Of a DNA stretch of 64,000 nucleotides, positions 7,266 through 53,748 are shown piece after piece. The DNA is from Liolophura sinensis. Its lineage: Eukaryota > Mollusca > Polyplacophora > Chitonida > Chitonidae. The notes below the pieces were generated by a model. The model did not search any database. It saw only the letters and a list, made by a program, of their open reading frames with translations, and was not told the DNA's origin. The stretch covers positions 19,275,608 to 19,339,607 of the forward strand of contig NC_088299.1 in NCBI RefSeq assembly GCF_032854445.1, written 5' to 3'. The stretch's first letter is position 1, and every line of letters starts with the position of its first letter. A program made the translations under genes and the position numbers.

Positions 7266-7267
7266 GG

Positions 7268-17798: not shown

Positions 17799-18502
17799 TG
17801 TTTGTCTGGTGTCCATCTGGAGATTATCTGTCTGGTGTTCATCTGGAGACTGTCCATATGTGTCCATCTGGAGATTATTTGTATTGTGTCCATCTGGTGA
17901 TTGGGTGTCTGGTGCCCATCTGGAAATTGTTTGTCTGGTGTCCATCTGGAGATTGTTTGCCTGGTGTCCATCGGGAGATTATTTGTCTGGTTTCCATCTG
18001 GAGATTATCCTCTGCTATCCATCCGGATATTGTTTGTCTGCTGTTCATCTGGATTTTGCTTATCTGATGTTCATCTGGATACTGTTTGTTTCGTGTCCAT
18101 CTGGATACTGTTTGTCTGGTGTCCACCTGGATAGTGTTTATCTGGTGTCCATCTGGAAATTGTTTGTCTGGTGTCCATCTGGATATTGTTTGTCCAAAGT
18201 CCACCTGGATATTGTTTGTCTGGTGTCCATATGGAGATCATTCTCTTCTGTCCATCTGCATATTGTCTGCCTGCTGTTCACCTGAATTTTGTTTGTCTGG
18301 TGTCCATCTGGAGATTGTTTGCCTGGTGTTCATCTGGAGATTGTTTGTCTGGTGTCAATCTGGTGATTATCTGTCTGGTCTCCATTTGAAGATTATTTTC
18401 TGCTGTCCATATGGATATTGCCTGTCCACTGTCCATCTGGATATTGCCTGTCCACTGTCCATCTAGATATTGTTTGTCTGGTGTCCATCTGGTGTCCATC
18501 TG
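17799..18502. repeat. 24-bp tandem array in the CENPT 3' UTR
   Basis: About 28 imperfect copies of GATTGTTTGTCTGGTGTCCA plus TCTG. Because 24 is a multiple of three, long frames stay open on both strands; these are artefacts. The array lies just 3' of the CENPT stop and is probably transcribed. Confidence 0.9.
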
Positions 18503-18545
18503 ACTGTCTGTGTGTTGCACATGTACATCTTTGCTGTGATATCAA

Positions 18546-18669
18546 TCAGTGGCGTGGGTAGAGAACGTTACCAGCTCTGGCCATGGGAACAATCTCCTGC
18601 TTGTACTCCAGAGGTAAATACTGCTCCACCAACGTGTACATAGACCTCCTGCCTGTGGCAAAGCCTTGT
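18546..18669 (-). CDS. CENPT: CENPT exon 10 (C-terminal extension, stop)
   Basis: Acceptor ATATTTCAG/ACAAGG; starts in phase 2 and ends with TGA at 18548-18546. It encodes residues 781-820. The segment SMYTLVEQYLPLEYKQ matches the conserved helical extension after the CENP-T histone fold. Confidence 0.92.
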
Positions 18670-21600
18670 CTGAAATATTACAACAATATACAACATTTTA
18701 TGCTTTCGTTCATCACACAACTTATTGGTTTTGATCACTCTATAGTGCGATACAGGTGGATTAGACTGGAACCTGATAATTCACATCACTTTACATGTAA
18801 CACATGTTTACTGTAAAAGAGCAGACAAGTTTAAAGAATAGTAAAAATACATGGCAGGAGACCATAAGAAACAATTCAGAAGCTACTTGCCAAAAAGACC
18901 ATAGGCAAACTAATTCACCCTGCCAAATACTTGTGACAGAAATAACATGAGACTAATCCACCCTGCCAAATACTTGTGACAGAAATAACATGAGACTAAC
19001 TCATCCTCACAAATACTTGTGACAGAAATAACATGAGACTAATCCACCCTGCCAAATACTTGTGACAGAAATAACATGAGACTAATCCACCCTGCCAAAT
19101 ACTTGTGACAGAAATAACATGAGACTAATCCACCCTGCCAAATACTTGTGACAGAAATAACATGAGACTAATCCACCCTGCCAAATACTTGTGACAGAAA
19201 TAACATGAGACTAATCCACCCTGCCAAATACTTGTGACAGAAATAACATGAGACTAATCCACCCTGCCAAATACTTGTGACAGAAATAACATGAGACTAA
19301 TCCACCCTGCCAAATACTTGTGACAGAAATAACATGAGACTAATCCACCCTGCCAAATACTTGTGACAGAAATAACATGAGACTAATCCACCCTGCCAAA
19401 TACTTGTGACAGAAATTACATGAGACTAATCCACCCTGCCAAATACTTGTGACAGAAATAACATGAGACTAATTCATCCTGACAACTACTTGTGACAGAA
19501 ATAACATGAGACTAATCCACCCAACTCATTGTGCCAAATACTTGAGGTAGAGTTTGAATTAATCTTGCAAAGCCTCTTTGTTTCAGGGGTTTGAGGAATG
19601 ACCCTTAAAATACAATAACTAAATCCATGACAGAATACTACACATAACATAATGTGAGAGCCACATGTACATGTAGAGGGCCAGTAATGGATGTCAGTGT
19701 AAAATGCCTGAAGGACTAATTTGAACCAGCTTCCATATCATACACCAGGCTATTAAATTAAACTGGCTTTGCATTGTGAATTTCTACTCCCCAATTTAGA
19801 TATTATACACAACAAAGACAGGCTTAATTGCATTTTAGAAATCAGATTGATATGATTTGCATAACTAAGCTGAGGTTAACAGAACACGTTTGGAATCAAA
19901 ATAATTGTTCTGTACCAAGTTCACTGGTGTTTATGCCTTTGGTAACAGATGTTCTTTTTTCAAAAAGTGAAATGCATTTTCACATTCATTCTGAAGGGAA
20001 ATTCATCACCTTGCATGGTTTTATGACAATGTCAATGTTTACGCCAGGCAATGTAATCAGGACATTTTTTACTCATAAATGTTTAGTGAAAATAAATAAA
20101 TAAATTCATGATTTTTGTCTTACATATTATTGTTTCCATGACTGAATCTAAATACTTTTCTTCATAACTATTTAGTCATGGTAATTAATTTGATCAATAA
20201 AATCTTCACCAAATAACATATTGTAATTTAAAGGAAAGAAGAAAATAATATATAAAAAAAACAAACTGAACTGACTTTGTGATTATTCAACGCAGTGAAC
20301 TGCAGACCGTTTCCTTAACATCTGTAACCTGTTGTCCTCTGTAAACTGATGACTTCAGTCTTCATACATGGATATTCATGGAACAGAAATTTAAGTTTTT
20401 CCCCCCACATGAAACTGAGCACTTAATTAACCTCTAATCTAGCTTTTGCTTTAATTTATAAACACATTCTGATAATCTGGAGCTTATTACAAGCTCAAAT
20501 GTGCTGATCTTAACTTTATTTCCCAAGTTTATGGGATGAAATGAGTATTTTTTCTTCACACTGTTTTAATGAGAAATGTCAGGGCTCTTGACAGTGGCTT
20601 ATTTTAGGCACTTTCTACCACTGGCTCAAGCTTCAACATCGTAGAAAAAGTGTAATCTAAAGCCGTGCAAAGATCAACACAGATGGTTTAGTGAATAGTG
20701 AAGAATTTAAAATGTCCATTCACCTCTACAAATGTCTTGTGAGATTTGTATGAGCACACAGACATTACCTCTTCATCAGAAGTTCTACGTCCTCCTCTGT
20801 GACCGTCACTCTGCCCGCATGATCAGCGAATGCTCCAAGGTCACTGGTCACATTGGTCCAATACTTGTCAGCACTACAACAACAACGGTACATCACATAA
20901 CTGCCAGTATCTAATCTACTTGCCACCACACTGTTTCTCTCCAAAAACAGGTTTAAAATAAATAAATACATAAAAACTGGGGAAAAAAATGAAATCAAGT
21001 GATGCAAACATGTTGCCTTGAAGTGCCCCATCCCAATCCCACATGTATCCAACCCTACATGTATCCAATACTACATGTATCCAACCTTACATGTATCCAA
21101 TCCTACATGTATCCAACCTTACATGTATCCAATCCCACATGTATCCAATCCCACATGTATCCAATCCTACATGTATCTAACCTTACATGTATCCAACCTT
21201 ACATGTATCCAATCCCACATGTATCCAACCCTACATGTATCCAATCCTACATGTATCCAACCCTACATGTATCCAATCCCACATGTATCCAATCCTACAT
21301 GTATCCAACCCTACATGTATCCAATCCTACATGTATCCAATCCTACATGTATGCAATCCAACATGTATCCAATCCTACATGTATCCAATCCCACATGTAT
21401 CCAATCCCACATGTATCCAATCCTACATGTATCCAATCCCACATGTATGCAATCCTACATGTATCCAATCCCACATGTATCCAATCCCACATGTATCCAA
21501 CCCTATATGTATGCAATCCCACATGTATCCAATCCCACACGTATCCAATGCTACATGAATCCAACCTTACATGTATCCAATCCCACATGTATCCAATCCT

Positions 21601-24600
21601 ACATGTATCCAATCCCACATGTATCCAACCTTACATGTATCCAACCTTACATGTATCCCATCCCACATGTATCCAATCCCACATGTATCCAATCCTACAT
21701 GTATCCAACCTTACATGTATCCAACCTTACATGTATCCAACCCCACATGTATCCAATCCTACATGTATCCAATCCTACATGTATCCAATCCCACATGTAT
21801 CCAATCCTATATGTATCCAACCTTACATGTATCCAATCCCACATGTATCCAATCCTACATGTATCCAACCCTACATGTATCCAATCCTACATGTATCCAA
21901 CCTTACATGTATCCAACCTTACATGTATCCAATCCTACATGTATCAACTCCCACATGTATCCAATCCCACATGTATCCAATCCCACACGTATCCAATCCC
22001 ACATGTATCCAACGCTACATGTACCCAATCCTACATGTCTCCAATCCCACATGTATCCAACCCCACATGTATCCAACCCTACATGTATCCAATCCCACAT
22101 GTATCCAACCCTACACGTATCCAATCCCACATGTATCCAATCCTACATGTTTAATACTACAGTCAATTTAGGAGATAAATTGTGGAAGTTGTAAGTATGG
22201 CAAATAGTGGCGATATGTTTACTGCACATTCACTGTCACAGGCTATTAAATTAGCAGAAATATAAGTCCATTAGACTTTGTCCTATATATCCTCAAGGCC
22301 TGACAATTTCATGGAAAATCAAACAAAGGTTATGAGAAACTCGACAGCTCACCGGTAATGGCTTCAGTTCAAATGACAGCCTAAGTTGACAGGACATTTA
22401 AATTCATATTGAGCAGGGTAGTGTCTTTATGATGAGCTCACTGTGTAAACGTTGGTGTGCACACCATGTTTAGAGTGAGTGAGTGCCCAGGGTTTAAGGT
22501 CACACTTAACAATTTTTCATCATATGACGACAAGCAGTCATGTGGGTGATGAACTGCAACTTTGTTTGCGCAGGGCAGTTTTCCATTGCTCCTTTATCTG
22601 GTGCTGCTCACCGAGGCGACATGCCAAAGGCAAGCAAGCCCTCTCACCCGGCTTATTATACTTAAACTGGTCGACCAGTCTGCAAATCTCCCTAATTATT
22701 TAAAATGAGAAAATCCCCAAATCCTGTCCATCATTCTCACCAAGGTTCATAAATATGATGTGAAAACTGATGGAATATCTGACCCAAACATAAATCCTTA
22801 CCATGGTCAACAAAACTGAATAGTACTGGCTAAGACAAAATGGCAAAGTCAAAAACCTGATAATTTGAATTAAAATCCAAATATACTTAAGTATTGAAAA
22901 TTATTTACTTAATGAGGAATTCTAGGCATGCCAATTGTCCACACCAAGTTTCAGCAAGACAGTGTAAAAACTGTGGCAACAGCTGACCCAAACAAAAAAA
23001 ACCTTACCCTAGCCTACTATAGTACTGGCTTGAATATAATGGCTAAGCCCAAAACCCGATAGTTTAAATAAAAATGAAAAATATCCCTAATTTATAATCA
23101 AAATGAGTAAATGTCCAAATCATTCATAGCAAATTTCACGAAAGTGGTGTGAAAACTGTAAGACTAGCCGACCCAAACATGAAAACTTACTCAATTAACA
23201 AATAAAAAAGCTTACTGAGACATTGGCACCATTTCCCCCCCTCAAACTCACAATACCTCACCTTACTTTGTAGCAGCAAGCTATAAAAAAGCAGAGCATA
23301 TCAAGGGAGTTTTATAATGTTATAGTGCAAACTAGTTCAGAAATACAACAGCTCAACAAATTCAATCATCACCAAATGCTAAGCAGAGTTAGGAACAAGA
23401 GAACAGGACAAACCAGTGAGTGGTCTGTCTTATTTGAAAATACTTTTTGCAGGGTGGGTATTTGGAACTACCTCTCGGTATCTATCTCCTTGGCATTATA
23501 ATCTTCTAAATAAGGATGTGATGTATTTCTAATAAATTTGTCTCAATGTAGATTTTCTGTTTATATCCAAAGACACATTTAATCTTCATTATAATAACAT
23601 TCATGAAAATATTAAAAGCATAAATGATTAAAATTCCATTTGAACACATTTGTTAGCTGAAAAAATCCAATTCTAACACAAATACATTTATTAAACATGC
23701 TTTACATCCTCAGTTAGAGCATTGCTATGCATACCAAGAGGTGGTCCTAAATACCCACCATACAATGACCATATATACCAAGAGGTGGTCCTAAATACCC
23801 ACCATACAATGACCATATATACCAAGAGGTGGTCCTAAATACCCACCATACAATGACCATATATACCAAGAGGTGGTCCTAAATACCCACCATACAATGA
23901 CCATATAATTATACCAAGAGGTGGTCATAAATACCCATCATACAATGTTGAGGAGGGTGGAACGTACACATGTTGAGGAGGGCGGGGACATACACATGTT
24001 GAGGAGGGTGGGGACATACACATGTTGAGGAGGATGGGAACATACACATGTTGAGGAGGATGGGAACATACACATGTTGAAGAGGATGGGGTAATACACA
24101 TGTTGAGGAGGGTGGGGACATACACATGTTGAAGAGGGTGGGGACATACACATGTTGAAGAGGATGGGGTAATACACATGTTGAGGACGGTGGGGACATA
24201 CACATGTTGAGGAGGGTGGGGACATACACATGTTGAGGAGGATGGGAACATACACATGTTGAGGACGATGGGGACATAGACATGTTGAAAAGGGTGGGGA
24301 CATACACATGTTGAAGAGGGCGGGGACATACACATGTTCAGGAGGGTGGGGACATACACATGGTGAAGAGGGTGGGGACATATGCATGTTGAGGAGGGTG
24401 GGGACATACACATGTTGAGCAGGGTGGGGACATACACATGTTGAGGAGGGTGGGGACATACACATGGTGAAGAGGGTGGGGACATACGCATGTTGAGGAG
24501 GGTGGGGACATACACATGTTGAGGAGGATGGGAACATACACATGTTGAGGACGGTGGGGACATACACATGTTGAAAAGGGTGGGGACATACACATGTTGA

Positions 24601-27600
24601 AGAGGGTGGGGACATACCCATGGTGAAGAGGGTGGGGATGTACACATGGGTGGAGATATACTCATGTGAATTCACTTTATCACATGGATGTGACGACCAG
24701 TTTTATGGGTGAAGGAAAAAGGGTTTTCCAGGGTTAGGAACACTTTCCTCCTTTGGCCACAAATGTAAGACTGTGCAGATCAACCCCAGAAGACTGCTTA
24801 CTGTCACCAAGGTCTCACAAGCAACAAGAGTGGGGAATAATCATATGATGGGGTACAGCACATATTATTCTGCAGTGTGTAAAACAATGAAAATCTCACA
24901 TCTTTTCAACTTCATTTAGGACATCCTTGGAAATGTTGGACTTCAAAAAATGGGAGAAAATTCCCTTAGTCAGACTTGCTGGCATTCGCAGTTTGCCGAT
25001 CATTTTTGTTTTCTTCTCAGGTCTGTGGGAAAAAGAACAGAAATACATCAAAAATGACAATTACTTACTTAGCACTCAGGCAGTCATACTGACCATATCT
25101 ACAGCCATCTTAGTTTCCAGGCTCTCAAAATGAACAAAAACATGATGTTTATCTATAAAAAGTTAAATTTTCATACAAATTTATTTCAATCCCAGGCTTA
25201 ATAGCTTTCAGAGAGCATCATTTTCAGTTGCATTTTATAAAATTTCTTTATGCATAGTCACATTGTCACCTTCAAAGATCAGAAACTTTTTTTTTCTTCC
25301 AGATATGGTCCTGATAGCACATGTAAATACTGTATCAAAAGTCATTAACTTTGTAACGAGCAAAAGATGATATGACATACAGAATAGATGACCAATATAA
25401 ACATGCCACTACACATGTGCGTACATTCATCAAAACATGTTGCTAATTGAAAAAAAAAAGGATATACTGTTTTTCAATTTGTCAGAGTTTCTAATGATCT
25501 GAAGATTTTTTTTTGGCAGATTTTGCTGCAGGTGGGATTAGTGCTTTCATGCCTTGTGTGTGCAAACATAGCTGATCATGAATTGATCACTTACCCTAAT
25601 TCCTCAACCTTTTCGCAAATAAAAGAATAACTTTCAGAGCAATTTAAGCATGTTTTAATTTGACTTAGGAGACAAAACTACATTGGATCTGTCGGCCAAT
25701 TTCAGGGCTTCTGACTTCTATCAGTCTACACAGAATAATGCCTCGAATATGCTTGAAATACCTCGCAAACATGTGAACAGGTTGAAGAATTACAGTAATC
25801 TTGAACAGCTCTATCACATGCACTTAACTGATGTGGCAAAGTCCCCAACTCACACAGAATTCATGAAAATCTGACATAGTTGTGTAGGAAATCGCTCAGA
25901 TGGACAGGTGTTCCTGATTTCTATGTATCTGAAATCTGTCTGATATTTCAAAAGCTTCCAATTACACTAGAGTTTCCATGCATTGTCCACATCCTAAGCT
26001 GGGCTGTTTTAGAAAGGTGCTGCACCCTCCCCATGAAATGTGCACCCTCCCGATGGAATGTGCACCCCACCCATAAAATGTGCACCCTGAGCATAAAATG
26101 TGCACCCCATCCATGGAATGTGCACCCTGCCCATGACACACTCATGAAATGTGCACCCTTCCCATGAAATGTGCACTTCCCATGAAATGTGCACCCTTCC
26201 CATGAAATGTGCACCCCGCCCATGGAATGTACACCCTGCCCATGGAATGTGCACCCTGCCCATGACACACCCATGAAATGTGCACCCTTCCCATGAAATG
26301 TGGACCCTCCCCATGAAATGTGCACCCCGCCCATGGAATGTGCACCCCACCCATGAAATGTGCACCCCGCCCATGAAATGTGCACCCTTCCCATGAAATG
26401 TGGACCCTGCCCATGGAATGTGCACCCCACACATGAAATGTGCACCCTGCCCATGAAATGTGCACCCTTCCCATGAAATGTGCACCCTCTCCATGAGATG
26501 TGCACCCCGCCCATGACACACCCATGAAATGTGCACCCTTCCCATGAAATGTGCACCCCGCCCATGGAATGTGCACCCCAGGCATGACACGCTCATGAAA
26601 TTTTTTCTCACAAGCTTAGATCTAATGGCATTAAATGGTTTAGTTAAACATTCTGGAAACTCAAATTCCAACTGCTGTACAAAAAAAAGGCTGAATGTGA
26701 AGATTATACCTTGGTTTGGGTTTTGTTATTTTCTGTTTGCCTGTGGTCACAGGTTTGGGCGCAGAGTTCATGTTTCCGGCCAGTCTCGAGACTGACATTG
26801 GCGTCAGCATTTTCCCCACGGTCGTATTCCTCACAGTATTTGGGGTTTTCACTTGAACATATTTCTGGACCCTAAAGAGCATGAGAAAAAAAAGTAGAAA
26901 TGCAAAAATTTCAGATACATGTAAGTAACCCACTGTTTGTCATCAAGTTCATGAGGCACAATTAATGTCTCCTGAATGAAGGCTGCAGCCAAACCAACAA
27001 GAGCTACATGTAGACTGCGACAAAGATAAGACTGTTCTAACCACAGGAGACACTCATCACTGTAAAACACCAAACCGACTTCTCTATTTAATCACAGAAC
27101 ACATCATTGAACACATCACCGTACACATCACTGAACACATCACTGCACACATCATTGCACGCATCATTGTATACATCATTGAACACATCACTGTACACAT
27201 CATTGCACACATCATTGTTTATATCATTGTACACATCACTGTACACATCATTGTACATATCATTGTACATTTCACTGTACTCATCATTGTACACATCATT
27301 GTATACATCACTGCATACATCACTGCACACATTATTGTACATATCATTGTACATATCACTGTACTTATCATTGTACACATCACTGTACACATCATTGCAC
27401 ATATCATTGTATACATCACTGCACACATCACTGTATACATCACTGTACACATCACTGTACACATCATTGTACACATCACTGCACACATCATGGTATACAT
27501 CATTGCACACATCATTGTTTAAATTATTGCACACATCACTGTACACATCATTGTATACATCACTGTACACATGATTGTATACATCACTGCACACATCACT

Positions 27601-33600: not shown

Positions 33601-36600
33601 AGAACAAGCCATTTGTGTATACCAAACTGATGGAAGGTATTACAACAACCTTTTGGGTCAGATTTTCACAGACGGAACAAGCCATTTGTGTATACCAAAC
33701 TGGTGATTATACCATCAACCTTTTGGATCAGATTTTCACAGACAGAACAAGCCAAACAGAACAAGCCATTTGTGTATACCAAACTGGTGGAAGGTATTAC
33801 AACAACCTTTCTTGTCAGATTTTCACAAACAGAACAAGCCATTTGTGTATACCAAACTGATGGAAGGTATTACAACAACCTTTTGGGTCAGATTTTCACA
33901 GACGGAACAAGCCATTTGTGTATACCAAACTGATGGAAGGTATTCCACCAACCTTTTGGATCAGATTTTCACAGACAGAACAAGCCATTTGTGTATACCA
34001 AACTGGTGGAAGGTATTACAACAACCTTTTGGATCAGATTTTCACAGACAGAACAAGCCATTTGTGTATGCCAAACTGGTGGAAGGTATTACAACAACCT
34101 TTTGGGTCAGATTTTCACAGACAGAACAAGCCAAACAGAACAAGCCATTTGTGTATACCAAACTGGTGGAAGGTATTACAACAACCTTTCTTGTCAGATT
34201 TTCACAAACAGAACAAGCCATTTGTGTATACCAAACTGGTGGAAGGTATTACAACAACCTTTTGGGTCAGATTTTCACAGACAGAACAAGCCAAACAGAA
34301 CAAGCCATTTGTGTATACCAAACTGGTGGAAGGTATTACAACAACCTTTCTTGTCAGATTTTCACAAACAGAACAAGCCATTTGTGTATACCAAACTGAT
34401 GGAAGGTATTACAACAACCTTTTGGGTCAGATTTTCACAGACAGAACAAGCCATTTGTGTATACCAAACTGGTGATTATACCATCAACCTTTTGGATCAG
34501 ATTTTCACAGACAGAACAAGCCAAACAGAACAAGCCATTTGTGTATACCAAACTGGTGGAAGGTATTACAACAACCTTTCTTGTCAGATTTTCACAAACA
34601 GAACAAGCCATTTGTGTATACCAAACTGATGGAAGGTATTACAACAACCTTTTGGATCAGATTTTCACAGACGGAACAAGCCATTTGTGTATACCAAACT
34701 GATGGAAGGTATTCCACCAACCTTTTGGGTCAGATTTTCACAGACGGAACAAGCCATTTGTGTATACCAAACTGATGGAAGGTATTCCACCAACCTTTTG
34801 GATCAGATTTTCACAGACAGAACAAGCCATTTGTGTATACCAAACTGGTGGAAGGTATTACAACAACCTTTTGGATCAGATTTTCACAGACAGAACAAGC
34901 CATTTGTGTATGCCAAACTGGTGGAAGGTATTACAACAACCTTTTGGGTCAGATTTTCACAGACAGAACAAGCCATTTGTGTATACCAAACTGATGGAAG
35001 GTATTACAACAACCTTTTGGGTCAGATTTTCACAGACAGAACAAGCCATTTGTGTATACCAAACTGATGGAAGGTATTACAACAACCTTTTGGGTCAGAT
35101 TTTCACAGACAGAACAAGCCATTTGTGTATACCAAACTGGTGATTATACCACCAACCTTTTGGATCAGATTTTCACAGACAGAACAAGCCATTTGTGTAT
35201 ACCAAACTGATGGAAGGTATTACAACAACCTTTTGGGTCAGATTTTCACAGACAGAACAAGCCATTTGTGTATACCAAACTGATGGAAGGTATTACAACA
35301 ACCTTTTGGGTCAGATTTTCACAGACAGAACAAGCCATTTGTGTATGCCAAACTGATGGAAGGTATTCCATCAAACTTTTGGATCAGATTTTCACAGACA
35401 GAGCAAGCCATTTGTGTATACCAAACTGGTGGAAGGTATTCCATCAACCTTTTGGGTCACATTTTCACAGACAGAACAAGCCATTTGTGTATACCAAACT
35501 GGCGATTATACCATCAACCTTTTGGATCAGATTTTCACAGACAGAACAAGCCATTTGTGTATACCAAACTGATGGAAGGTATTCCATCAACCTTTTGGGT
35601 CGGATTTTCACAGACAGAGCAAGCCATTTGTGTATACCAAACTGGTGGAAGGTATTCCATCAACCTTTTGGGTCAGATTTTCACAAACAGAACAAGCCAT
35701 TTGTGTATACCAAACTGATGGAAGGTATTACAACAACCTTTTGGGTCAGATTTTCACAGACAGAACAAGCCATTTGTGTATACCAAACTGGTGATTATAC
35801 CATCAACCTTTTGGGTCAGATTTTCACAGACAGAGCAAGGCATTTGTGTATACCAAACTGATGGAAGGTATTCCATCAACCTTTTGGATCAGATTTTCAC
35901 AGACAGAACAAGCCATTTGTGTATACCAAACTGATGGAAGGTATTACAACAACCTTTTGGGTCAGATTTTCACAGACAGAACAAGCCATTTGTGTATACC
36001 AAACTGATGGAAGGTATTACAACAACCTTTTGGATCAGATTTTCACAGACAGAACAAGCCAAACAGAACAAGCCATTTGTGTATACCAAACTGGTGGAAG
36101 GTATTACAACAACCTTTCTTGTCAGATTTTCACAAACAGAACAAGCCATTTGTGTATACCAAACTGATGGAAGGTATTCCATCAACCTTTTGGATCAGAT
36201 TTTCAGACAGAACAAGCCATTTGTGTATACTAAACTGATGGAAGGTATTACAACAACCTTTTGGGTCAGATTTTCACAGACAGAACAAGCCATTTGTGTA
36301 TACCAAACTGGTGATTATACCATCAACCTTTTGGATCAGATTTTCACAGACAGAACAAGCCATTTGTGTATACCAAACTGATGGAAGGTATTACAACAAC
36401 CTTTTGGATCAGATTTTCACAGACAGAACAAGCCAAACAGAACAAGCCATTTGTGTATACCAAACTGGTGGAAGGTGTTACAACAACCTTTCTTGTCAGA
36501 TTTTCACAAACAGAACAAGCCATTTGTGTATACCAAACTGATGGAAGGTATTACAACAACCTTTTGGGTCAGATTTTCACAGACAGAACAAGCCATTTGT

Positions 36601-39600
36601 GTATACCAAACTGGTGATTATACCATCAACCTTTTGGGTCAGATTTTCACAGACAGAACAAACCAAACTGATGGAAGGTATTCCAACAACCTTTTGGATC
36701 AGATTTTCACAGACAGAACAAGCCATTTGTGTATACCAAACTGGTGGAAGGTATTACAACAACCTTTTGGGTCAGATTTTCACAGACAGAACAAGCCAAA
36801 CAGAACAAGCCATTTGTGTATACCAAACTGGTGGAAGGTATTACAACAACCTTTCTTGTCAGATTTTCACAAACAGAACAAGCCATTTGTGTATACCAAA
36901 CTGATGGAAGGTATTACAACAACCTTTTGGGTCAGATTTTCACAGACGGAACAAGCCATTTGTGTATACCAAACTGATGGAAGGTATTCCACCAACCTTT
37001 TGGATCAGATTTTCACAGACAGAACAAGCCACTTGTGTATACCAAACTGGTGGAAGGTATTACAACAACCTTTTGGATCAGATTTTCACAGACAGGACAA
37101 GCCATTTGTGTATACCAAACTGATGGAAGGTATTCCATCAACCTTTTGGGTCAGATTTTCACAGACAGAACAAACCATTTGTGTATACCAAACTGGTGGA
37201 AGGCAAGTAACCTTCCATAAAGTTTGTACAAGACCACCTTAGTGCTCCTACCAGCACTCTCAATAACCACATAAGATCATTATCAATACCCTAACAACAA
37301 TGGAGGACGAGAAGTCTCTAAACTTCTCCATCCCAGACTGGAACTGAATCAACACAATTTTTACTCCCCACAACAGGTGCTGAAATTAAGCCAGGTACAA
37401 TCAATAACCTTGTCATTAAGTTAAATATTCAATCTAATATTAGATATATTTCCTCATCTTTAGCCCAAATTATTGCAATCTAAAAGGTGCCCAAATTAGA
37501 TACGCCGTACTGGACCCAGATATGAGCAACAATGAGACAAGCCTTTTATTAACTGCAGGGCCACAGCAGACCCCAGTTAACGCGAAATTAACTTACCACT
37601 GTGCTGGGACACATAAGAAGTCATTGTCCTGGGGGAACGTCTGGGTCTCTGGTGGGCTGTTACATTTAATGGGCTGAAACACACACACACGTGTACATCA
37701 CGCATCACAATGACCACTCGTCGAGGGTTACAGCCATTGTATAAACCATACACTGAACAGTCCCACATAAACACAACCCATCCTGTATATGTAGAAACGG
37801 TACTACATCTGTATGTGTATTTAATATGGAAGTCTTCAAAAACTTCTTCCTATAAAAAAGATACTGACAGAGTGCTTTTATTTCACCAGGGTCATGTAAT
37901 TGGCTGAGAAGTACAACGAGTGTTTGTAGGTCTATGAATGACCTTCTCTGCAGAGGGTGGCCGGCTGCCACTGGGCTCTACGCAGTTTCTTCTCACCATA
38001 GTGCTGGCAGTTGCTGAACAAGTGAAATATTCTTGATTCATGAGTACAGAGTAAAACAGCAACCAAACCAATAAATACATGAATCACCACCTAGACAAAA
38101 ACACAGATTGTGTTTAAACAAAAGCATTACCATAAATGGCCTAAAATTTCACTCATGATGAAGTTGCATATTTGTCCAGATTCTGAGAGTGATCTCATAC
38201 AGGTGTTCTGAAGACTGTTCGGAAAGTCATATTTTATGGAATTTATTTGCTCCCAAAAACAAACTTTTTAAGACGTAATTTTAGGCATCTGTAAGGCTGG
38301 AATCTTACTGAGGTAAAACCAGGGTAAGAAAATACCCAAAGGCAAACTTCCAGACATCTAGTCCCTTTGAATGAGAGCTTAAAGCCATCTAAAATGCCTC
38401 CTGAATAAAAAGTGTTTTGAGATTGTCAAAAATGAACATGTCTCTGAAGGGCCATAATTCAAAAACTGCTTGGAATTGGGATACTAATGAAAAAGTCAAG
38501 ATACTGTATACTATTTACTTTATTAAACAAAAGCTGTTATTCACTCGATAAAGTTTCCAGCATGAAGATTGAAAGCTCCTGTAAAATTTCTAACTGATGT
38601 GGGGATGTCATGACCTCTGGGTTATTAAAGGAGACTCCCAATGCTTTTTTTTGACACTAAATGTTCCCTAGACATGCTATTTATGCTATGTTTAGTTGCA
38701 AACTGCATTTTAAAAAATATTAGGTCCACTAGTTCCACATAACAATTTCACTGAAGTTGAACCGTTCTATCTGCCTATCTTGTCGGCCACGGAGTTCTTC
38801 AGCAGTTGCTTGTAACAGCTCGGCCTCATCGATTCACTAAGTTTTCATGTGTGCGTCCTCCATAATTGAAGGGTGTTTTCGATGAGATCTGGCCCATATT
38901 TTCTCAATCTGTGGCTTTTCATAGGCCACATGTGCTGTTTTAGTGCAGTCACAAGGGACACCTGGGCATGGTATAATCCCGAAATAAGTTAGCCCCTGTG
39001 CTGTGTGTTGTCAACAAAGAGAAACCCCACATGTCTACAGGGTATGTGCATGTACAGTCGTGACCTCACAAGGTCAACGATCGTAGGCTGGATCGTAGTG
39101 GAGTAGATTTTCTGATGTTTGATCGACAAATTCTATTGTTTTTCTTCCGTTTTCCATGTTTAAATGACTGGAATTGATTCTGGGGACATTAAACTATCCA
39201 TCTGCAGTTTGACAGGACCAGTGCCAGGGATCTATTTTAACAAGGTAACTATCTTGCCTTACCTGTCCTCTACAATTAGCAGTGGCTCTGGGGGAATAGG
39301 AGGCAGGGTGAGGCCATCACTCTCCCTCTGACTCTGAATAGGAGTCTCAGACACAGCTGGAACAAATAACCACACAGATATCCAGTGTCAAACCTGTAGT
39401 CACACGGATCTTGTACAGTATTGGATCCAGGATTTCTGGCCACAGGGATCTGCTGTACACAAGTACAGCATTGGATCCAGGATTTCTGGCCACAGGGATC
39501 TGCTGTACACAAGTACAGCATTGGATCCAGGATTTCTGGCCACAGGGATCTGCTTTACACAAGTACAGCATTGGATCCAGGATTTCTGGCCACAGGGATC

Positions 39601-42600
39601 TGCTGTACAAAAGTACAGCATTGGATCCAGGATTTCTGGCCACAGGGATCTGCTGTACAAAAGTACAGCATTGGATCCAGGATTTCTGGCCACAGGGATC
39701 TGCTGTACACAAGTACAGCATTGGATCCAGGATTTTTGGCCGCAGGGATCCGCTGTACACAAGTACAGCATTGGGTCCAGAATTTTTGGCCAAGCGCTAT
39801 ACATGAACATTTAGAAGAACTTTTCCAATGAGAAATTAACAAATACGGTGCAAGCATTAGTATCTTTAAAACATTCTGTGTGACACTCACCCTGTGTCAG
39901 GAAAGATTTAATGATTTTTCAGAGGGTTAGAGCTTTTCTCTTTTGTCTCTACAACAGGCTACACTGAGACATACACTGTATTCAGGTCTTTTCACTTACA
40001 CGGTTTACAATCTTGTGATACTGCAGCCTGGCTGATCTCCACATTAAACTTACAGAATGTATTACTTGCGGCCCTTTGTCCTACTGTATTTCACCTCAAG
40101 CTTGGTATGTTAAAAGTGCACTTTTAAAAGCACACCATGACCATAAAATGATACTTTTGGTGCCAGTAATTAAGTTTTCCTAACAAGAAATTAATCAAAC
40201 CTCTTAAGTAGGATTATAAGATGGAAGAATCCCTCAGAATGAAGCAAAATGTGTCACTTGGGAATTGATAAGCTTTATGTAAACTACAGTACAGTCACCT
40301 GATCAAATGAAGCATATATAAACTCAATTATTTTGCTTTATCATTCTCAAAGACACTTTTAAGATTGTGTAAGACAATCTAACGCTGAGCTCCAAATAAA
40401 CTGAAGCCTTAAACCATCCTGTCAAACACTCACCCTGCCTCAGAAAACCTGCTATAACTGTTCTGGGGGTGAGGTTTTTCCCAGGTGTCTCTATCACCGG
40501 CGTCTGCAACCTGGCTGATCTGCGCCGCTGAGAGGTCAGACTGGCATAACCCCCCACACTTTCTCGTACCTCTGTTTCTTCTATTCGTCTGCGTTTGCGA
40601 GTTTCCGGTTTTGCAGTCTCGTGAGTTTCCAGAAATTTCTGAATCTACAACATAATTTGGAACATGCAGATGTATGTAAATCCATGTCTGTTTGTGAAAT
40701 TCCAACCTAACTGATCATCTGTGTGCGGAAACCCTCACGGAGAATCCACGCACATGTACATGTGTGGCATTCAATCAACATAATCATTCAATTTTAAAAA
40801 AAATACCTTAAAAAAAATTATAAAGCTTAAAGCAGTGCCCATAATTTCATCATTTAATTTACATGTACCTGAATTTAAAATGGATTTTCAGAGATTCACT
40901 TTGCAGAACTCCACCAGAAACTAGTCCAAACCGTAGTAGTACACAAAGCAGAACTTTGATTCAATGGAAGGTTTTAATGCATATAAAACACATTTTGTGG
41001 ATTCAGTGTTAATAATGTGAGTCTGAGTACACTTGGGCAAAAGATGAAGTCATGAACTGGATAGTTGAGAACCTCTGAACATATTTAAGTTGTTCTTGTG
41101 ACTTTTTTTTTTCATATGAAAGTCCTTGAAGCACATTTTGGTAGTTTTAGTTCACTGCAGTCAAGGAAAGAATAAGGTTTTTGTCAAAAGTGAAGCTCTA
41201 TATACATTACACCGTAACACCAGCAACCTGTGCATGGTTGTGGATGTTTCCCGGGCTCTGCCCGGTTTCCACCCATCGTATAAGTGAAATATTCTTGAGT
41301 ACGGCATAAAACACCAATCAAATAAATCAATAAATATAATTTATTATGGCTTATAAGAGACGTACAACTGAGCAGATTCATTGTTTAAACCTTGTACCTT
41401 GGTAATCCAGGCCTTTAATTTCATCATTAAAATTGATTCCTGCACATCCACTTTGCAGGAATCCACCAGACTTCAGGTGTAGTTTAATGCATTTAAAAGT
41501 AAACAGGTTTTAAGGATACAATGCTAATAGCTTTAATGCTATCACTGTGAAAGTATCAGTCCACTGGCCAAAAGACTTAGATATGAATGGAAAAGCTGTG
41601 AACATCTAAACATTTTAAAATTATTTTGGGGGCCTTTTTTGCTCACGAAAGTCAGATAAGAATCAAGATCCAGCCCAAAGTATAGCTCTACACACATTAC
41701 ATGGCAAAAACATTCAAGAAATATACATGCCTACTGCACCACACAGTGACAGAATGCCTACTGTACCACACAGTGACAGAATGTCTACTGTACCACACAG
41801 TGACAGAATGTCTACTGTACCACACAGTGCAGAATGTCTATTGTACCACAGTGACAGAATGTCTACTGTACCACACAGTGACAGAATGTCTACTGTACCA
41901 CACAGTGACAGAATGTCTACTGTACCACACAGTGCAGAATGTCTACTGTACCACACAGTGACAGAATATCTACTGTACCACACAGTGCAGAATGTCTACT
42001 GTACCACACAATGACAGAATGCCTTCTGTACCACACAGTGCAGAATGTCTACTGCACCACACAGTGGGAGAATGTCTACTGCACCACAGTGACAGAATGT
42101 CTACTGCACCACACAGTGACAGAATGCCTACTGTATCACACAGTGACAGAATGCCTACTGCACCACACAGTGACAGAATGCCTACTGCACCACACAGTGA
42201 CAGAATGCCTACTGTACCACACAGTGACAGAATGTCTACTGTACCACACAGTGACAGAATGCCTACTGTACCACACAGTGCAGAATGCCTATAGTACCAC
42301 ACAGTGACAGAATGTCTACTGTACCACACAGTGACAGAATGTCTACTGTACCACAGTGACAGAATGTCTACTGCACCACACAGTGACATAATGTCTACTG
42401 TACCACACAGTGACAGAATGTCTACTGCACCACACAGTGACAGAATGCCTACTGTACCACACAGTGACAGAATGTCTACTGCACCACACAGTGACAGAAT
42501 GCCTACTGTACCACACAGTGACAGAATGTCTACTGCACCACACAGTGACAGAATGTCTACTGTACCACAGAGTGACAGAATGCCTACTGTACCACAGAGT

Positions 42601-44983
42601 GACAGAATGTCTACTGTACCACACAGTGACAAAATGCCTGCTGCACCACGCAGTGACAAAATGCCTACTGCACCACAAAGTGACAGGATGTCTACTGCAC
42701 CACACAGTGACAAAATGCCTACTGCACCACAAAGTGACAGGATGTCTACTGCACCACACAGTCGCAGAAAGTCTACTGTACCCAGTGACAGAATGTCTAC
42801 TTTACCACACAGTAACAGAATACCAAGTGTACCACACTATACAGAAAGTCTACTGCACCACACAGTGACAGAATGCCAACTGTACCACACAGTGACAGAC
42901 TACCATCTGTACCACATAGTGACAGAATACCAACTGTACCACACAGTGACAGAATGCCTTCTGAACCACATGCTTTGATAAATCATGAGTATATCAGTGC
43001 TACAGACAATTTTTTGTCACAGAGAGTACGGTACTCTCGACTTTGAAAGAGAGGGAGTACATTACTTCCAACTTTCCAAGTATGCGGTACCGCAGAACAC
43101 ATTTTTTCAAATACTCAACACTTCATTATGTCGGGTCACCAGTCATACACTTGGAAAGTGTGAAACTGATCAAGTGAAAGTGGATGGAGAAAACAACTAA
43201 GACGTAAGCCCACATGTGCATAAAGGTATACACAGGCCGACATACAGATATTCTTTCCTTTGTGGTTAGGACTACCTGGTATACAAGTAGAGAGGATTCG
43301 TACAGGTATATACAGGTATCATTTTCAAGGCTAGTTTAAACATACCCTGGTGCAAATTATAGACTATAATTTACTATGGGTTACTATTTTTTTCAGCCAG
43401 TCACTTTCGCCACTCATCAGATTTTATAGTAAATACTATTTTTCTTTAGTCATACTTCCTTAGTGGCCATGACTTTGTAGGTTTCCTTCTGTAATTCGTT
43501 TTTATCTGCCTTGGTGTAGCTGCTAGACTCAGTTTGGTCTCTTCCAGCTACATCTGGAGTTTATCAAACATTACATTTAGAACAATTGCCCTCAAAATAA
43601 TGGATCAGGACTTGGCAGTGTGTATTCAACTTGCAACAATGCTGTTCCCCCCCCCCCCCCCCCCCCATGTAGATTTCTGTCAAGTAATCGTCATACAACT
43701 GTGTTGTTGTTGTTTCACCCAGATGAGGCCGTTTGAAATGAAAGTAAGTGGATTATTTTAATATGAACAATTGCAAACATCTGCTAAACGCCCCAGAAAA
43801 AGTAGATTTTGTATAACGTTTGTATTTTTTCTTAAGTAAATAAATTTGTCGACAAAAACATTCGCATTTTATCGCCATTTCACATAATTGTTCTAAATTT
43901 GCGACAATGGCGAGTGCCAGCGGAAGCCCTGATTAAGGGAGAATTATCAGCGAGCTTCCAATATACAGACTCGGCGGTCAGCAGACAATATTTAAGTTTG
44001 GGACAAACTAAGATTTTCAAGGATTTTGGGGAGTATTTGTCTTTTTTAAGGACTTTCAAGTGCTTGAAAATGAAATTGTATTTTTCAAGCACTTTCAAGG
44101 ACTATGCGCACCCTGGTAGATGTAGGCCTACATATAAACTGGCCAAGAAACATTCTAGAATTAAGTAATTATTTCAGCTCCTCTGCAAGAGGAATGAATT
44201 TGAATGAAATTAATACATTTATTGGGCATCAACCTGTGTGGGGTTTATTTCAGTAAGTCACTCACTGATGCGACAGGTGAATTTTCTTTTACCTGTCTAA
44301 CCATTTCTTGGCCCCACACAAACTTGTTAACAATCTCCACCTTTGGGTCAAAAGATGATGAAATGGTTGTTGATATGTGCTAAATCCAGATGTAGGGGCT
44401 ACATTAGAAGACAAGAATTTATTATTTTGTGCTTTAATTATTGGCAGTATTTGGTATAAATCTGAAGTGTTTCTTCAAAGCGGTTAGTGGGGGCACAGCT
44501 GTAGCCTAGTGTGTCTGAAAACTAACACACGGTGGAGAATGTCGAGCACATGGTTCGCTGTGGAGATTCACTTCTGATTTTGGCAGGGCTGTTTCTATGC
44601 TCTGTTTTAATTTTAGAAGCATATCACCTAATTTTTTAAGTGTATTTACGCCTGAATGCCCCTTATCTGTAGCACTGGCGTGTTAACTTTCTTTCTCAAC
44701 CATGCAGGAGATTCAACACCAGGCAGGTTATCTATTCTCCTGCCAATGATGCCGGCCTTACCGCACTTCTGGGGGTCACATCAGAGAATGAACTCCGTCG
44801 CTTGTTCTTTCTAGAGGTCGAAGGTTGTGGTACAGGGTTTTCCAACACAGGCTTAGTGTTTTGTGTTGACGAAGACTGTCGCAATGATCGTCGGCGTTGG
44901 GCTGAGACTGCATTCTGGGTAACCTTGGCCTCCAGAAGATCTTTGATCAGTGTGCGAGGTGTAATTGTAGAGTCATCTGCCAT
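18546..44983 (-). CDS. CENPT: CENP-T, centromere protein T (complete, 10 coding exons)
   Basis: Inner-kinetochore protein of the CCAN. In known CENP-T the C-terminal histone fold pairs with CENP-W on centromeric DNA, and the N-terminus recruits the NDC80 complex once CDK1 has phosphorylated TP sites. Ten exons with GT/AG borders and matching phases join into 2463 bp (820 residues plus stop). Visible parts: TPRT motifs at residues 8-11 and 133-136, matching the two TPRTLL motifs of the human protein; a Ser/Arg-rich then Asp/Glu-rich disordered centre (about 210-590); histone fold (about 715-785) with helix 2 motif AFADHAGR and helix 3 EEDVELLMKRQG; and a C-terminal extension with YLPLEYKQ. It is longer than the human protein (about 560 residues), mostly through exon 5. 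A 5' UTR intron is likely (acceptor at 45005). Identity is strong; exon borders are read by eye. Confidence 0.92.
18670..20768 (-). other. CENPT intron 9
   Basis: Phase 2 intron, donor AGAG/GTAATG and acceptor TTTCAG. It holds the 43-bp array; 19540-20768 is otherwise unremarkable AT-rich sequence. Confidence 0.85.
18908..19535. repeat. 43-bp tandem array, about 14 copies (CENPT intron 9)
   Basis: The unit begins ACTAATCCACCCTGCCAAAT and ends ATAACATGAG. Central copies are essentially identical and the edge copies diverge, the usual pattern of unequal exchange. Confidence 0.95.
20769..20873 (-). CDS. CENPT: CENPT exon 9 (histone fold helices 2-3)
   Basis: Acceptor TTGTTGTAG/TGCTGA, donor AAGAG/GTAATG; phase 2 in and out. 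It encodes residues 746-779, including TNVTSDLGAFADHAGRVTV, which aligns with the human stretch around EVFAAHAGRKTV. Confidence 0.93.
21031..22150. repeat. 16-bp tandem array, about 70 copies (CENPT intron 8)
   Basis: The unit is ACATGTATCCAATCCT with CCT/TCC/CTT variants. All three plus-strand frames stay open for over 350 codons because the unit lacks stops; this is not coding evidence. Confidence 0.95.
22472..22650 (-). mobile_element. SINE-like family B remnant
   Basis: Plus-strand GTGAGTGAGTGCCCAGGGTT and CATCATATGACGACAAG are the reverse complement of the family B 3' end seen at 8500-8566 and 13865-13936. The 5' part is diverged. Confidence 0.55.
22690..23215. repeat. Diverged 190-200-bp triplication (CENPT intron 8)
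   Basis: GTGAAAACTG ... GACCCAAACA ... CTTAC ... AGTACTGGCT ... TGGCTAAG recurs three times; the GACCCAAAC anchors fall at 22781, 22985 and 23170. The copies are far more diverged than the minisatellites. Confidence 0.6.
23731..23947. repeat. 44-bp tandem repeat, 5 copies (CENPT intron 8)
   Basis: The unit ACCAAGAGGTGGTCCTAAAT ... CAATGACCATATAT. The first four copies are nearly identical and the last is diverged. Confidence 0.95.
23947..24665. repeat. 26-bp tandem array, about 27 copies (CENPT intron 8)
   Basis: Unit GACATACACATGTTGAGGAG plus GGTGGG, with variants (GGTGAAGAGG, GAGGACGG). It follows the 44-bp array without a gap. Confidence 0.95.
24900..25022 (-). CDS. CENPT: CENPT exon 8 (histone fold helix 1)
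   Basis: Acceptor TCCCACAG/ACCTGA, donor AAGAT/GTGAGA; phase 2 in and out. It encodes residues 705-744. The segment LTKGIFSHFLKSNISKDVL is the start of the CENP-T histone fold. Confidence 0.92.
25023..26709 (-). other. CENPT intron 7
   Basis: Donor CCAAG/GTATAA. It carries the 20-bp array. A diverged segment at about 25190-25320 resembles 29895-30020 in intron 6. Confidence 0.8.
26020..26592. repeat. 20-bp tandem array, about 28 copies (CENPT intron 7)
   Basis: The unit is TGCACCCTGCCCATGAAATG. Occasional shortened units contain GACACACC. Long frames across it on the minus strand are by-products of the repeat. Confidence 0.95.
26710..26871 (-). CDS. CENPT: CENPT exon 7
   Basis: Acceptor GCTCTTTAG/GGTCCAG, donor AAACCAAG/GTATAA; phase 2 in and out. 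It encodes residues 651-703, a basic Thr/Pro/Lys-rich linker leading into the histone fold, with TP sites (VKTPNT, MLTPMS). Confidence 0.88.
27095..27725. repeat. 12-bp tandem array, about 52 copies (CENPT intron 6)
   Basis: The unit ACACATCACTGT alternates with ACATCATTGT variants. Both strands give long Tyr/Thr/Ser- or Asp/Val-rich frames because the unit is a multiple of three. Confidence 0.95.
28357..28790. repeat. 36-bp tandem array, 12 copies, almost perfect (CENPT intron 6)
   Basis: The unit TTAATTTGAGAGACTGTCAA ... CCGTGCATA is repeated 12 times. Apart from a G/A choice in CCC(G/A)TGCATA and one T-to-A change the copies are identical, so the array was formed or homogenised recently. 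Confidence 0.97.
30546..30730 (-). CDS. CENPT: CENPT exon 6
   Basis: Acceptor TGTTTCCAG/GATGTA (phase 0), donor TCTCACAG/GTAATT (phase 2). It encodes residues 589-649, a Ser/Asp-rich disordered segment with repeated RLGDS motifs. Support comes from splice sites and phase more than from conservation. Confidence 0.8.
30731..31378 (-). other. CENPT intron 5
   Basis: Phase 0 intron, donor GTACAG/GTATGG. No tandem array is present in it. Confidence 0.8.
31379..32538 (-). CDS. CENPT: CENPT exon 5 (large disordered exon)
   Basis: Acceptor TTTGTTTACAG/TCCAGT (phase 1), donor GTTGTACAG/GTATGG (phase 0). 1160 bp encode residues 203-588. It opens with FDFTLGSIVELEDEKEV, is Ser/Arg-rich in the middle, then strongly Asp/Glu-rich (VEGDDEIEDVENQVDD and following). 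No folded domain is visible, as expected for the linker between the NDC80-binding N-terminus and the histone fold of CENP-T. This exon explains most of the extra length over the human protein. Confidence 0.88.
32539..37596 (-). other. CENPT intron 4
   Basis: Donor AGTG/GTAAGT. About 90% of this 5-kb intron is the 73-bp array. Confidence 0.85.
32695..37203. repeat. 73-bp tandem array, about 60 copies (CENPT intron 4)
   Basis: The unit starts TGATGGAAGGTATTACAACA and ends CATTTGTGTATACCAAAC. Variants include a short form (GGTGATTATACCATCAACC), a form with a 15-bp duplication (CAAGCCAAACAGAACAAGCC) and a CTTTCTTGTCAG form. The last two travel together and recur, so there is higher-order structure. 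Since 73 is not a multiple of three, all three plus-strand frames open in turn; none is a gene. Confidence 0.97.
37597..37673 (-). CDS. CENPT: CENPT exon 4
   Basis: Acceptor GTGTTTCAG/CCCATT (phase 2), donor CACAGTG/GTAAGT (phase 1). It encodes residues 177-201, basic with an RRSPRTM motif. It fits between exons 3 and 5 by phase. Confidence 0.85.
37674..39262 (-). other. CENPT intron 3
   Basis: Donor GACAG/GTAAGG. Around 37930-38078 is a diverged plus-oriented SINE family A 3' end (GTGAAATATTCTTGATTCAT). No tandem array is present; the rest shows nothing notable. Confidence 0.75.
37930..38078 (+). mobile_element. SINE family A relic (CENPT intron 3)
   Basis: Contains GCTCTACGCAGTTTCTTCTC, CACCATAGTGCTGGCAGTTG and AAGTGAAATATTCTTGA followed by an ACCAATAAATA tail. 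It is much diverged from the intact copy at 62658. Confidence 0.55.
39263..39356 (-). CDS. CENPT: CENPT exon 3
   Basis: Acceptor TTTGTTCCAG/CTGTGT (phase 1), donor GAGGACAG/GTAAGG (phase 2). It encodes residues 146-175, Pro/Leu-rich and ending PLLIVED. It follows exon 2 in frame. Confidence 0.87.
39404..39791. repeat. 50-bp tandem array, about 7.8 copies (CENPT intron 2)
   Basis: The unit TACAGCATTGGATCCAGGAT ... GATCTGCTGTACACAAG. Each copy contains a GGATCC site. Confidence 0.96.
39891..40042 (-). pseudogene. Decayed duplicate of CENPT exon 2 (TPRT exon)
   Basis: Minus-strand sequence GAGATCAGCCAGGCTGCAG and GTAGAGACAAAAGAGAAAAG ... TTTCCTGACACAGG/GTGAGTG follows exon 2 (GCAGATCAGCCAGGTTGCAG, ATAGAGACACCTGGGAAAAA ... 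TTTTCTGAGGCAGG/GTGAGTG) up to and past the donor. The frame matching the TPRT region has a TAA, the TPRT codons are lost, and about 60 bp is inserted. Skipping it keeps exon 2 to exon 3 in phase. Confidence 0.65.
40434..40644 (-). CDS. CENPT: CENPT exon 2 (second TPRT motif)
   Basis: Acceptor TATGTTGTAG/ATTCAG (phase 0), donor AGGCAGG/GTGAGT (phase 1). It encodes residues 75-144. It contains basic KRRR, several TP sites and LTPRTVIAGFLRQ at 132-144, matching the second human TPRTLL motif (around T85), an NDC80-binding site when phosphorylated. Confidence 0.92.
40850..41700. repeat. Diverged duplication within CENPT intron 1
   Basis: The segment 40850-41210 (CACTTTGCAGAACTCCACCA ... CTCTATATACATTACA) resembles 41410-41700 (CACTTTGCAGGAATCCACCA ... 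CTCTACACACATTACA) along its length with small gaps. A SINE tail lies between the copies. Confidence 0.6.
41215..41337 (+). mobile_element. SINE family A, 5' truncated (CENPT intron 1)
   Basis: CCCGGGCTCTGCCCGGTTTC to AGTACGGCATAAAACACCAA with an ATCAAATAAATCAATAAATA tail. The tRNA-like head is missing. Confidence 0.8.
41735..42975. repeat. 27-bp tandem array, about 45 copies (CENPT intron 1)
   Basis: Unit CTACTGTACCACACAGTGAC plus AGAATGT, with shorter units that lose ACA or GAC. The single-unit deletions shift frame, so open frames hop across the array; they are not genes. Confidence 0.95.
43985..44114 (-). mobile_element. Possible hAT-type transposon end
   Basis: On the minus strand the segment starts CAGGGTGCGCATAGTCCTTG and runs through CTTGAAAGTGCTTGAAAAAT. 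hAT elements commonly start CAGGGT followed by such CTTGAAA/CTTAAAA-rich sequence. I see no partner end or transposase. Confidence 0.35.
44762..44983 (-). CDS. CENPT: CENPT exon 1 (start codon, first TPRT motif)
   Basis: ATG at 44983-44981 in the context GTCAAAATGG. It encodes residues 1-74; donor AGAAGTGCG/GTAAGG in phase 0. MADDSTITPRTLIKDLLEA aligns with the human N-terminus, placing T8-P9 at the position of the CDK1 site T11. A third TPR (residues 70-72) closes the exon. An acceptor-like TATGTTTTAG at 45005 lies 20 bp upstream, so the 5' UTR is probably split. Confidence 0.92.
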
Positions 44984-47107: not shown

Positions 47108-47816
47108 TGTCACAGAATATGGTAAGGCTGTGTTTCACCCGTTTATGTAACGGTAAGGCTGTGTGCACCTGCCTATATAATGGTAAGGCTGTGTGCACCT
47201 GCCCATATAATGGTAATACTGTGTGCACCCGCCTGTATAATGGGTAAGGCTGTGTGCACCCGCCTATATAATGGTAAGGCTGTGTGCACCTGTCTGTATA
47301 ATGGTAAGACTGTGTGCACCTGCCCATATAATGATAAGACTGTGTGCACCTGCCTATATAATGGTAAGGCTGTGTGCACCTGCCTATATAATGGTAAGGC
47401 TGTGTGCACCTGTCTGTATAATGGTAAGGCTGGGTGCGCCTACCTATATAATGGTAAGGCTGTATGCACCCGCCTATATAATGGTAAGGCTGTGTGCACC
47501 CGCCTGTATAATGGTAAGACTGTGTGCACCTGCCCATATAATGATAAGACTGTGTGCACCTGCCTATATAATGGTAAGGCTGGGTGCACCTGCCTATATA
47601 ATGGTAAGGCTGTTGTGCACCTGTCTGTATAATGGTAAGGCTGGGTGCGCCTACCTATATAATGGTAAGGCTGTATGCACCCGCCTATATAATGGTAAGG
47701 CTGTGTGCACCCGCCTGTATAATGGTAAGACTGTGTGCACCTGCCCATATAATGATAAGACTGTGTGCATCTGCCTATATAATGGTAAGGCTGTGTGCAC
47801 CTGCCTATATAATGCA
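47108..47816. repeat. 30-bp tandem array, about 24 copies
   Basis: Unit ATATAATGGTAAGGCTGTGT plus GCACCTGCCT. Every copy contains ATGGTAAG, close to the consensus 5' splice site. The unit is a multiple of three, so frames stay open on both strands without meaning. Confidence 0.95.
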
Positions 47817-52801: not shown

Positions 52802-52944
52802 GACTAGTTAAACAGTTAGACGGTGGATGTAATATAGAAATCCCTTTTTAAAGTTACATTAAATATTTACACACGCGTATATAAGCACGCTCTTCTGTGG
52901 TATTTATTTATATAAAATAAAAATTAGGCAGTTTCGAAAGAAAG

Positions 52945-53748
52945 CCACTCCCCTTTGTTATGCGTGCACCAACGTTAAAAACTACTGACTTAACACCACT
53001 GTTCTTTGTCATATATGCACCTAAACGTGCGTCACAAAACTACTGACCTAAAGCCGCCGCTCTTTGCCATATATGCACCTACGTAAATGTCACAAAATTA
53101 CTGACCTAAAGCCGCCGCTCTTTGCCATATATGCACCTACGTGAATGTCACAAAACTACTAACCTAAAGCCGCCGCTCTTTGCCATATATGCACCTACAT
53201 GAATGTCACAAAACTACTGACCTAAAGCCGCCGCTCTTTGCCATATATGCACCTACATGAATGTCACAAAACTACTGATCTAAAGCTGCCGCTCTTTGCC
53301 ATATATGCACCTACGTGAACGTCACAAAACTACTGACCTAAAGCCGCCGCTCTTTGCCATATATGCACCTACGTAAATGTCACAAAATTACTGACCTAAA
53401 GCCGCCGCTCTTTGCCATATATGCACCTACGTAAATGTCACAAAACTACTGACCTAAAGCCGCTGCTCTTTGCCATATATGCACCTACGTAAATGTCACA
53501 AAACTACTGACCTAAAGCCGCTGCTCTTTGCCATATATGCACCTACATGAATGTCACAACACTACTGACCTAAAGCCGCCGCTCTTTGCCATATATGCAC
53601 CTACGTAAATGTCACAAAACTACTGACCTAAAGCCGCTGCTCTTTGCCATATATGCGCCTACGTAAATGTCACAAAACTACTGACCTAAAGCTGCCGCTC
53701 TTTGCCATATATGCACCTACATGAATGCCACAACACTACTGACACAAA
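52945..53748. repeat. 58-bp tandem array, about 13 copies, 5' of the GPCR
   Basis: Unit ACTGACCTAAAGCCGCCGCT ... CACCTACGTAAATGTCACAAA. It begins about 150 bp upstream of the GPCR frame, so it lies in its promoter or a 5' intron. Confidence 0.95.

Follow-up and report, generated by a model that had tools for sequence, protein, structure and literature searches.

The 64,000-nucleotide stretch of Liolophura sinensis DNA analysed here (hereafter the window) contains a complete CENP-T gene with eleven tandem arrays. The explanation that we consider very probable is an intact gene whose introns gained length through the neutral growth of minisatellites, within DNA that is prone to repeats. A CpG-depleted domain that coincides with CENPT, a depletion common to ten of its eleven arrays, is a new observation of this study. 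We found nothing that ties the arrays to the centromere role of CENPT, as there was no k-mer common to the units, no 146-bp period and, apart from loose matches to one unit, no occurrence of the units elsewhere in the window.

The CENPT gene and its tandem arrays

CENPT lies on the minus strand (44983-18546) and comprises ten coding exons with 820 codons, including a stop codon that ends at 18546 (Table 1). All nine introns are of the GT...AG type, and all exon joins are in phase within a single full-length, intact frame, in agreement with the preliminary description. The span given there, 17799-42975, indeed holds the arrays, but the gene continues beyond it to 44983. A CENP-T_C histone fold was identified at the C terminus (Pfam PF15511; E 4.5e-22, 78.6 bits against a cut-off of 28.1), and 102 residues of the C-terminal piece matched PDB chains named CENP-T or Centromere protein T (E 1.1e-26). 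Exons 1 and 2 contain the stretches TPRTLI and TPRTVI, which may correspond to the N-terminal Ndc80-binding motifs of CENP-T. Exon 4 was placed by splice signals and phase only. The large exon, when searched alone against Pfam, and the open reading frame 30249-30656 yielded no match in this database. An additional exon near 27.9 kb was rejected, since the junction of exons 6 and 7 is in phase without such an exon. Immediately upstream of the start codon, an acceptor-like site is present at 45004, and a non-coding first exon is therefore possible. The introns measure 0.6-5.1 kb each and 23,975 bases in total. Within intron 2, the segment 39866-39959 is about 70% identical to 40409-40501, which spans the last part of exon 2 together with the donor site; the peptide of the segment is split between frames, and it therefore resembles a degenerate copy of that exon end.

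Table 1. Coding exons of CENPT, tandem arrays of the gene and the CpG-depleted domain (positions in the window; TRF, Tandem Repeats Finder)
Feature	Position	Strand	Basis and remarks
CENPT exons 1-5	44983-44762, 40644-40434, 39356-39263, 37673-37597, 32538-31379	-	820-codon frame
CENPT exons 6-10	30730-30546, 26871-26710, 25022-24900, 20873-20769, 18669-18546	-	820-codon frame
26-bp-unit array, probable 3' UTR	17799-18502		TRF; starts 43 bases past stop codon
43-bp-unit array, intron 9	18909-19522		TRF; 14.3 copies, 96% matches
16-bp-unit array, intron 8	21033-22150		TRF; about 70 copies
44-bp-unit array, intron 8	23731-23947		TRF
26-bp-unit array, intron 8	23939-24666		TRF; abuts 44-bp array
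20-bp-unit array, intron 7	26021-26601		TRF
12-bp-unit array, intron 6	27099-27724		TRF
36-bp-unit array, intron 6	28357-28790		TRF; 98% matches, CpG o/e 0.97
73-bp-unit array, intron 4 (89% of intron)	32699-37203		TRF and unit split
50-bp-unit array, intron 2	39413-39792		TRF; 56 bases from exon 3 acceptor
27-bp-unit array, intron 1	41727-42970		TRF
CpG-depleted domain over CENPT including probable 3' UTR	17501-45500		CpG o/e bins

TRF recovered all eleven different arrays named in the preliminary description. Ten of them lie in introns and one in the probable 3' UTR, and their best scores extend from 384 for the 44-bp unit up to 6396 for the 4.5-kb array in its row of period 146. Twenty dinucleotide-preserving shuffles of the window produced five TRF rows in total, which occurred in four of the shuffles and reached a top score of 67; in comparison with these shuffles, head-to-tail units of roughly 10-100 bp, as expected of minisatellites, are present beyond chance. 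The array coverage of 17799-42975 amounts to 11,142 bases, close to the 11 kb claimed before. Two earlier statements have to be corrected: arrays occupy seven of the nine introns (1, 2, 4, 6, 7, 8 and 9, with introns 3 and 5 empty) rather than six, and the unit of the 3' array has 26 bp rather than 24 bp. Altogether, 10,438 of the 23,975 intron bases (43.5%) are arrays, and the share per array-bearing intron ranges from 29% (introns 6 and 9) to 89% (intron 4). Matches between copies are highest for the 36-bp unit (98%) and lowest for the 20-bp unit and for the 3' array (78%). The intronic array closest to a splice site is 56 bases away from it, and all others keep at least this distance. Beyond the 3' array, an AATAAA motif was found at 17632; the array is probably part of the CENPT 3' UTR, a position that fits the placement of the stop codon and this motif.

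The 4.5-kb array of intron 4 consists of 60 units, which have lengths of 73, 70, 71, 87 or 60 bases and comprise 35 distinct sequences. Blocks of units, for example 12-13, 15-16-17 and 13-27, are repeated in order, as is typical of arrays shaped by unequal exchange or conversion. The whole array is listed by TRF at period 146, and its autocorrelation was 0.73 at lag 73 and 0.55 at lag 146, with peaks at very long lags disregarded because few bases lie behind them. Given that units of other lengths blur the lag test, the units were aligned directly. Their mean identity was alike at separations of one, two and three units (0.873, 0.882 and 0.888), and a 146-bp two-unit repeat was therefore rejected; a slight rise was seen at five and ten units (0.905 and 0.906, compared with 0.885 for all pairs).

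Nearly all units are unrelated to one another. Among 136 pairs of 17 unit consensuses, 11 reached p<0.05 (6.8 expected), and four pairs, compared with about 0.7 expected, gave the lowest p-value that the shuffle test allows. In one of these four, the 81/48-bp pair, the two arrays overlap; the others (27/48, 20/30 and 50/27) scored 13-15 in local alignment, where the null means were 6-7, and the 50- and 27-bp units both belong to CENPT. Some units may thus be slightly related, judging from these sequence comparisons. None of the 5- to 8-mers shared among 16 units recurred beyond shuffles. The motif test covered units other than those of 81, 135, 28 and 17/51 bp, the last three of which were also outside the pair test. 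The earlier claim that the units share no obvious sequence is borne out for nearly all of them. A search of the window for further occurrences of 17 units, with those over 40 bp represented by their first 40 bases, yielded nothing beyond some loose matches, all of them to the 12-bp unit. In a masked self-BLAST of the window (E 1e-5), no match linked the flanks of two CENPT arrays. A Helitron or MITE with an internal array was likewise rejected as a source, since the window self-BLAST, which single-copy elements would escape, revealed no common element ends at the arrays. The nine intronic array blocks contain no four-run GGG G-quadruplex on either strand, and the 50-bp array has seven loose GG-run matches on the strand opposite to CENPT. 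Donor-like sites in these blocks were restricted to the 16-bp array on the CENPT strand (12 weak sites, top score 3.6) and to the 73-bp array on the other strand. Rfam and tRNA scans across the window returned nothing.

Apart from the arrays, the window harbours a short interspersed element (56195-56439) which may resemble gastropod elements. It has 13 further matches in the window on both strands, and two of the 14 places, the reference copy included, lie inside the CENPT coding span. At 7170-7539, a fragment resembling this element abuts a compound 17/51/35-bp array, which may mark a site where an element gave rise to an array.

Density of arrays in CENPT and its flanks

Arrays account for 39.5% of the CENPT coding span and for 25.0% of the window as a whole. 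In the flanks, they reach 22.0% on the right side and 3.9% on the left side; without its single 4.5-kb array, CENPT has 27.1%. When 18 array blocks were placed at random in 5000 trials, only 3.4% of the placements reached the array bases of CENPT (p = 0.034), while the number of arrays gave p = 0.22 and a circular-shift test p = 0.052. These tests concern one gene that was chosen after its arrays had been seen, and their p-values are therefore at most a hint. The density described as striking in the preliminary description is above that of both flanks, but stands out less in terms of array number and when the largest array is set aside. The arrays that it noted in flanking DNA are dense in the right flank but sparse in the left flank, which shows that the tendency to expand arrays is not uniform along the window. 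Its interpretation as a whole, in which a regional tendency to expand repeats was held to be as likely as any function, is partly supported: the regional tendency is the better reading, and the sequence comparisons revealed no connection of the arrays with the centromere.

In the right flank, a rhodopsin-type GPCR open frame is present on the minus strand (51692-52807; Pfam 7tm_1, 5e-15) with arrays on either side. One array (52978-53743) starts 171 bases from the upstream end of the frame, and a second one ends 726 bases from its other end. In another mollusc, a slug, the use of TRF enlarged the repeat mask by 28.39% of the genome (PMC12506671). The figure of 57.72% in the excerpt on the Rapana genome was not used as an array base rate because we read it as referring to repeats of all kinds. 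Among the literature matches listed, the titles and the starts of the abstracts gave no account of arrays in CENPT introns.

CpG depletion of the gene and its arrays

The observed/expected (o/e) CpG ratio of non-array DNA in 1.5-kb bins, with no value for bins that are nearly all array, was 0.19-0.68 at 18-45 kb compared with 0.67-1.14 before 18 kb and at 45-60 kb. Up to 60 kb, the depletion is thus confined to the gene. Bins of 500 bases reveal a clear upstream edge, with 0.37 followed by 1.13 at 45.5 kb, and a less clean 3' edge, with 0.51-0.57 at 15.5-17.0 kb, then 0.99, and 0.35 from 17.5 kb. The ratio was 0.43 in the coding exons, 0.38 in the non-array introns of CENPT, 0.11 in the nine intronic array blocks and 0.83-0.84 in the flanks. 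Gene-body methylation causes CpG loss of this kind, and we infer from the base composition that the domain is probably the imprint of germline methylation of the gene body. Such methylation is known in a bivalve mollusc from the oyster methylome (PMC3840415). The stretch 60001-64000 is CpG-poor too (0.32-0.39 in 1.5-kb bins, 0.25-0.48 in 500-base bins) and is perhaps another methylated gene; the 135-bp-unit arrays located there are less depleted (0.67-0.73).

Ten of the eleven CENPT arrays have a CpG o/e of 0.21 or less, compared with 0.27-1.93 in nine arrays outside the gene (Mann-Whitney p 0.001). Across 19 arrays, the CpG o/e of an array correlated with that of its nearest non-array bases, taken up to 600 on each side (rho 0.82, p 2e-5, a p-value that is optimistic because neighbouring arrays are not independent). 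The GC content of the arrays does not account for their CpG o/e (rho 0.12, p 0.62). The only CpG-normal array of the eleven, that with the 36-bp unit (0.97), is surrounded by DNA of 0.63, the least depleted part of CENPT. Outside the gene, exceptions to this tracking are R30 (47119-47814), with 0.27 in DNA of 0.89, and three arrays at the right end, with 0.67-0.74 in DNA of 0.52-0.56. The correlation points to local amplification of intron DNA that was depleted already as the likely source of the arrays. A part of intron 6 (27501-30000), which contains the uniform 36-bp array, has a CpG o/e of 0.52-0.72, above that of most of CENPT, and is perhaps a recent insertion.

Transitions in a CpG context accounted for 15 of 151 variant types summed over ten of the eleven CENPT arrays, and for 19 of 121 in seven arrays outside the gene. 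This count used a fixed-register split, which is rough for arrays with indels, above all R30; in four arrays it was limited to units of consensus length (41 of 60 in the 73-bp array), and I8_44, L88, L17/51 and R28 were left out. Given that such variants are few, the units were probably CpG-poor already when the present copies arose, and an in-place decay of the arrays from CpG-rich units is disfavoured.

Origin and meaning of the arrays

According to the explanation that we favour, each array would begin when a short piece of the local intron sequence was duplicated by chance, and would then grow by replication slippage together with unequal exchange or gene conversion. It would be tolerated because it lies in the 3' UTR or in an intron, there at least 56 bases from splice sites. 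Array lengths would be expected to differ between individuals, and the arrays would be expected to have no kinetochore role. In their unit length of 12-73 bp, their extent of a few hundred bases to a few kilobases and their position in introns and UTR with the exons spared, the arrays resemble the intronic minisatellites (VNTRs) of animals. CENPT has more arrays, which form a larger share of its introns, than typical vertebrate genes are known to have.

It is also conceivable, but in our view unlikely, that methylated, germline-transcribed gene bodies are preferred sites for the birth and growth of minisatellites, and that CENPT is rich in arrays as such a gene and not by its function. The densest array stretch does coincide with the CpG-depleted domain at about 17.5-45.5 kb, and ten of the eleven arrays inside it are poorer in CpG than the nine outside. 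However, this argument draws on one gene in which methylation is deduced from CpG loss, arrays still occupy about 2.8 of the 15 kb of CpG-normal DNA at 45-60 kb, and introns may simply be the place where array growth is tolerated. Gene-body methylated genes of molluscs, as in the oyster methylome (PMC3840415), share with CENPT an imprint that is limited to the gene, although the imprint of CENPT is one of CpG loss. We are similarly doubtful about the general form of this idea, namely that in this lineage methylated germline-expressed gene bodies are minisatellite hot spots, and that the introns of housekeeping genes grow largely by unrelated arrays with the CpG-poor imprint of their host gene. 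If it were true, the CpG content of an array would reveal its birthplace.

A regulation of CENPT by its arrays, for example by slowed transcription or by steering of alternative splicing, appears very unlikely, although such roles have been suggested for some intronic minisatellites. The C. elegans minisatellite CeRep25B is over-represented in introns that flank alternate exons of genes with multiple splicing decisions (PMC4039745), and the satellite introns of Drosophila kl-3 and kl-5 are proposed to require a special expression programme (PMC6508621). CeRep25B resembles the CENPT arrays in being located within introns, but it is a single family that is mostly clustered on chromosome III and contains known splicing motifs (PMC4039745), whereas the units of CENPT differ and have no motif in common beyond the null expectation. 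Donor-like sites on the CENPT strand are confined to one of nine intronic array blocks and are weak. In kl-3 and kl-5, as in CENPT, tandem repeats form much of the intron DNA of the gene. In the Drosophila genes, however, they comprise megabases of simple satellite that account for more than 99% of the locus (PMC6508621), while CENPT has about 10.4 kb of arrays with many units in 24 kb of introns of non-gigantic size. We give hardly any credence to the view that satellites of the centromere or pericentromere reside in this kinetochore gene as its arrays or spread from it. The TRF period of 146 of the 4.5-kb array is close to nucleosome length, and a pericentromeric satellite with 179-bp units is known from a limpet (PMC11121367). 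However, a centromeric satellite would be one family with higher-order structure, whereas eleven different units occur in this single gene, the direct alignment of the 73-bp units revealed no two-unit period, and CENPT is intact and CpG-depleted like expressed genes.

The arrays of CENPT reveal nothing about kinetochores. The gene is a clear worked example of how minisatellites can come to occupy more than 40% of the intron DNA of a conserved gene while its coding frame stays intact. Furthermore, a comparison of the CpG content of arrays with that of their host DNA provides a cheap test to tell locally born arrays from imported ones.
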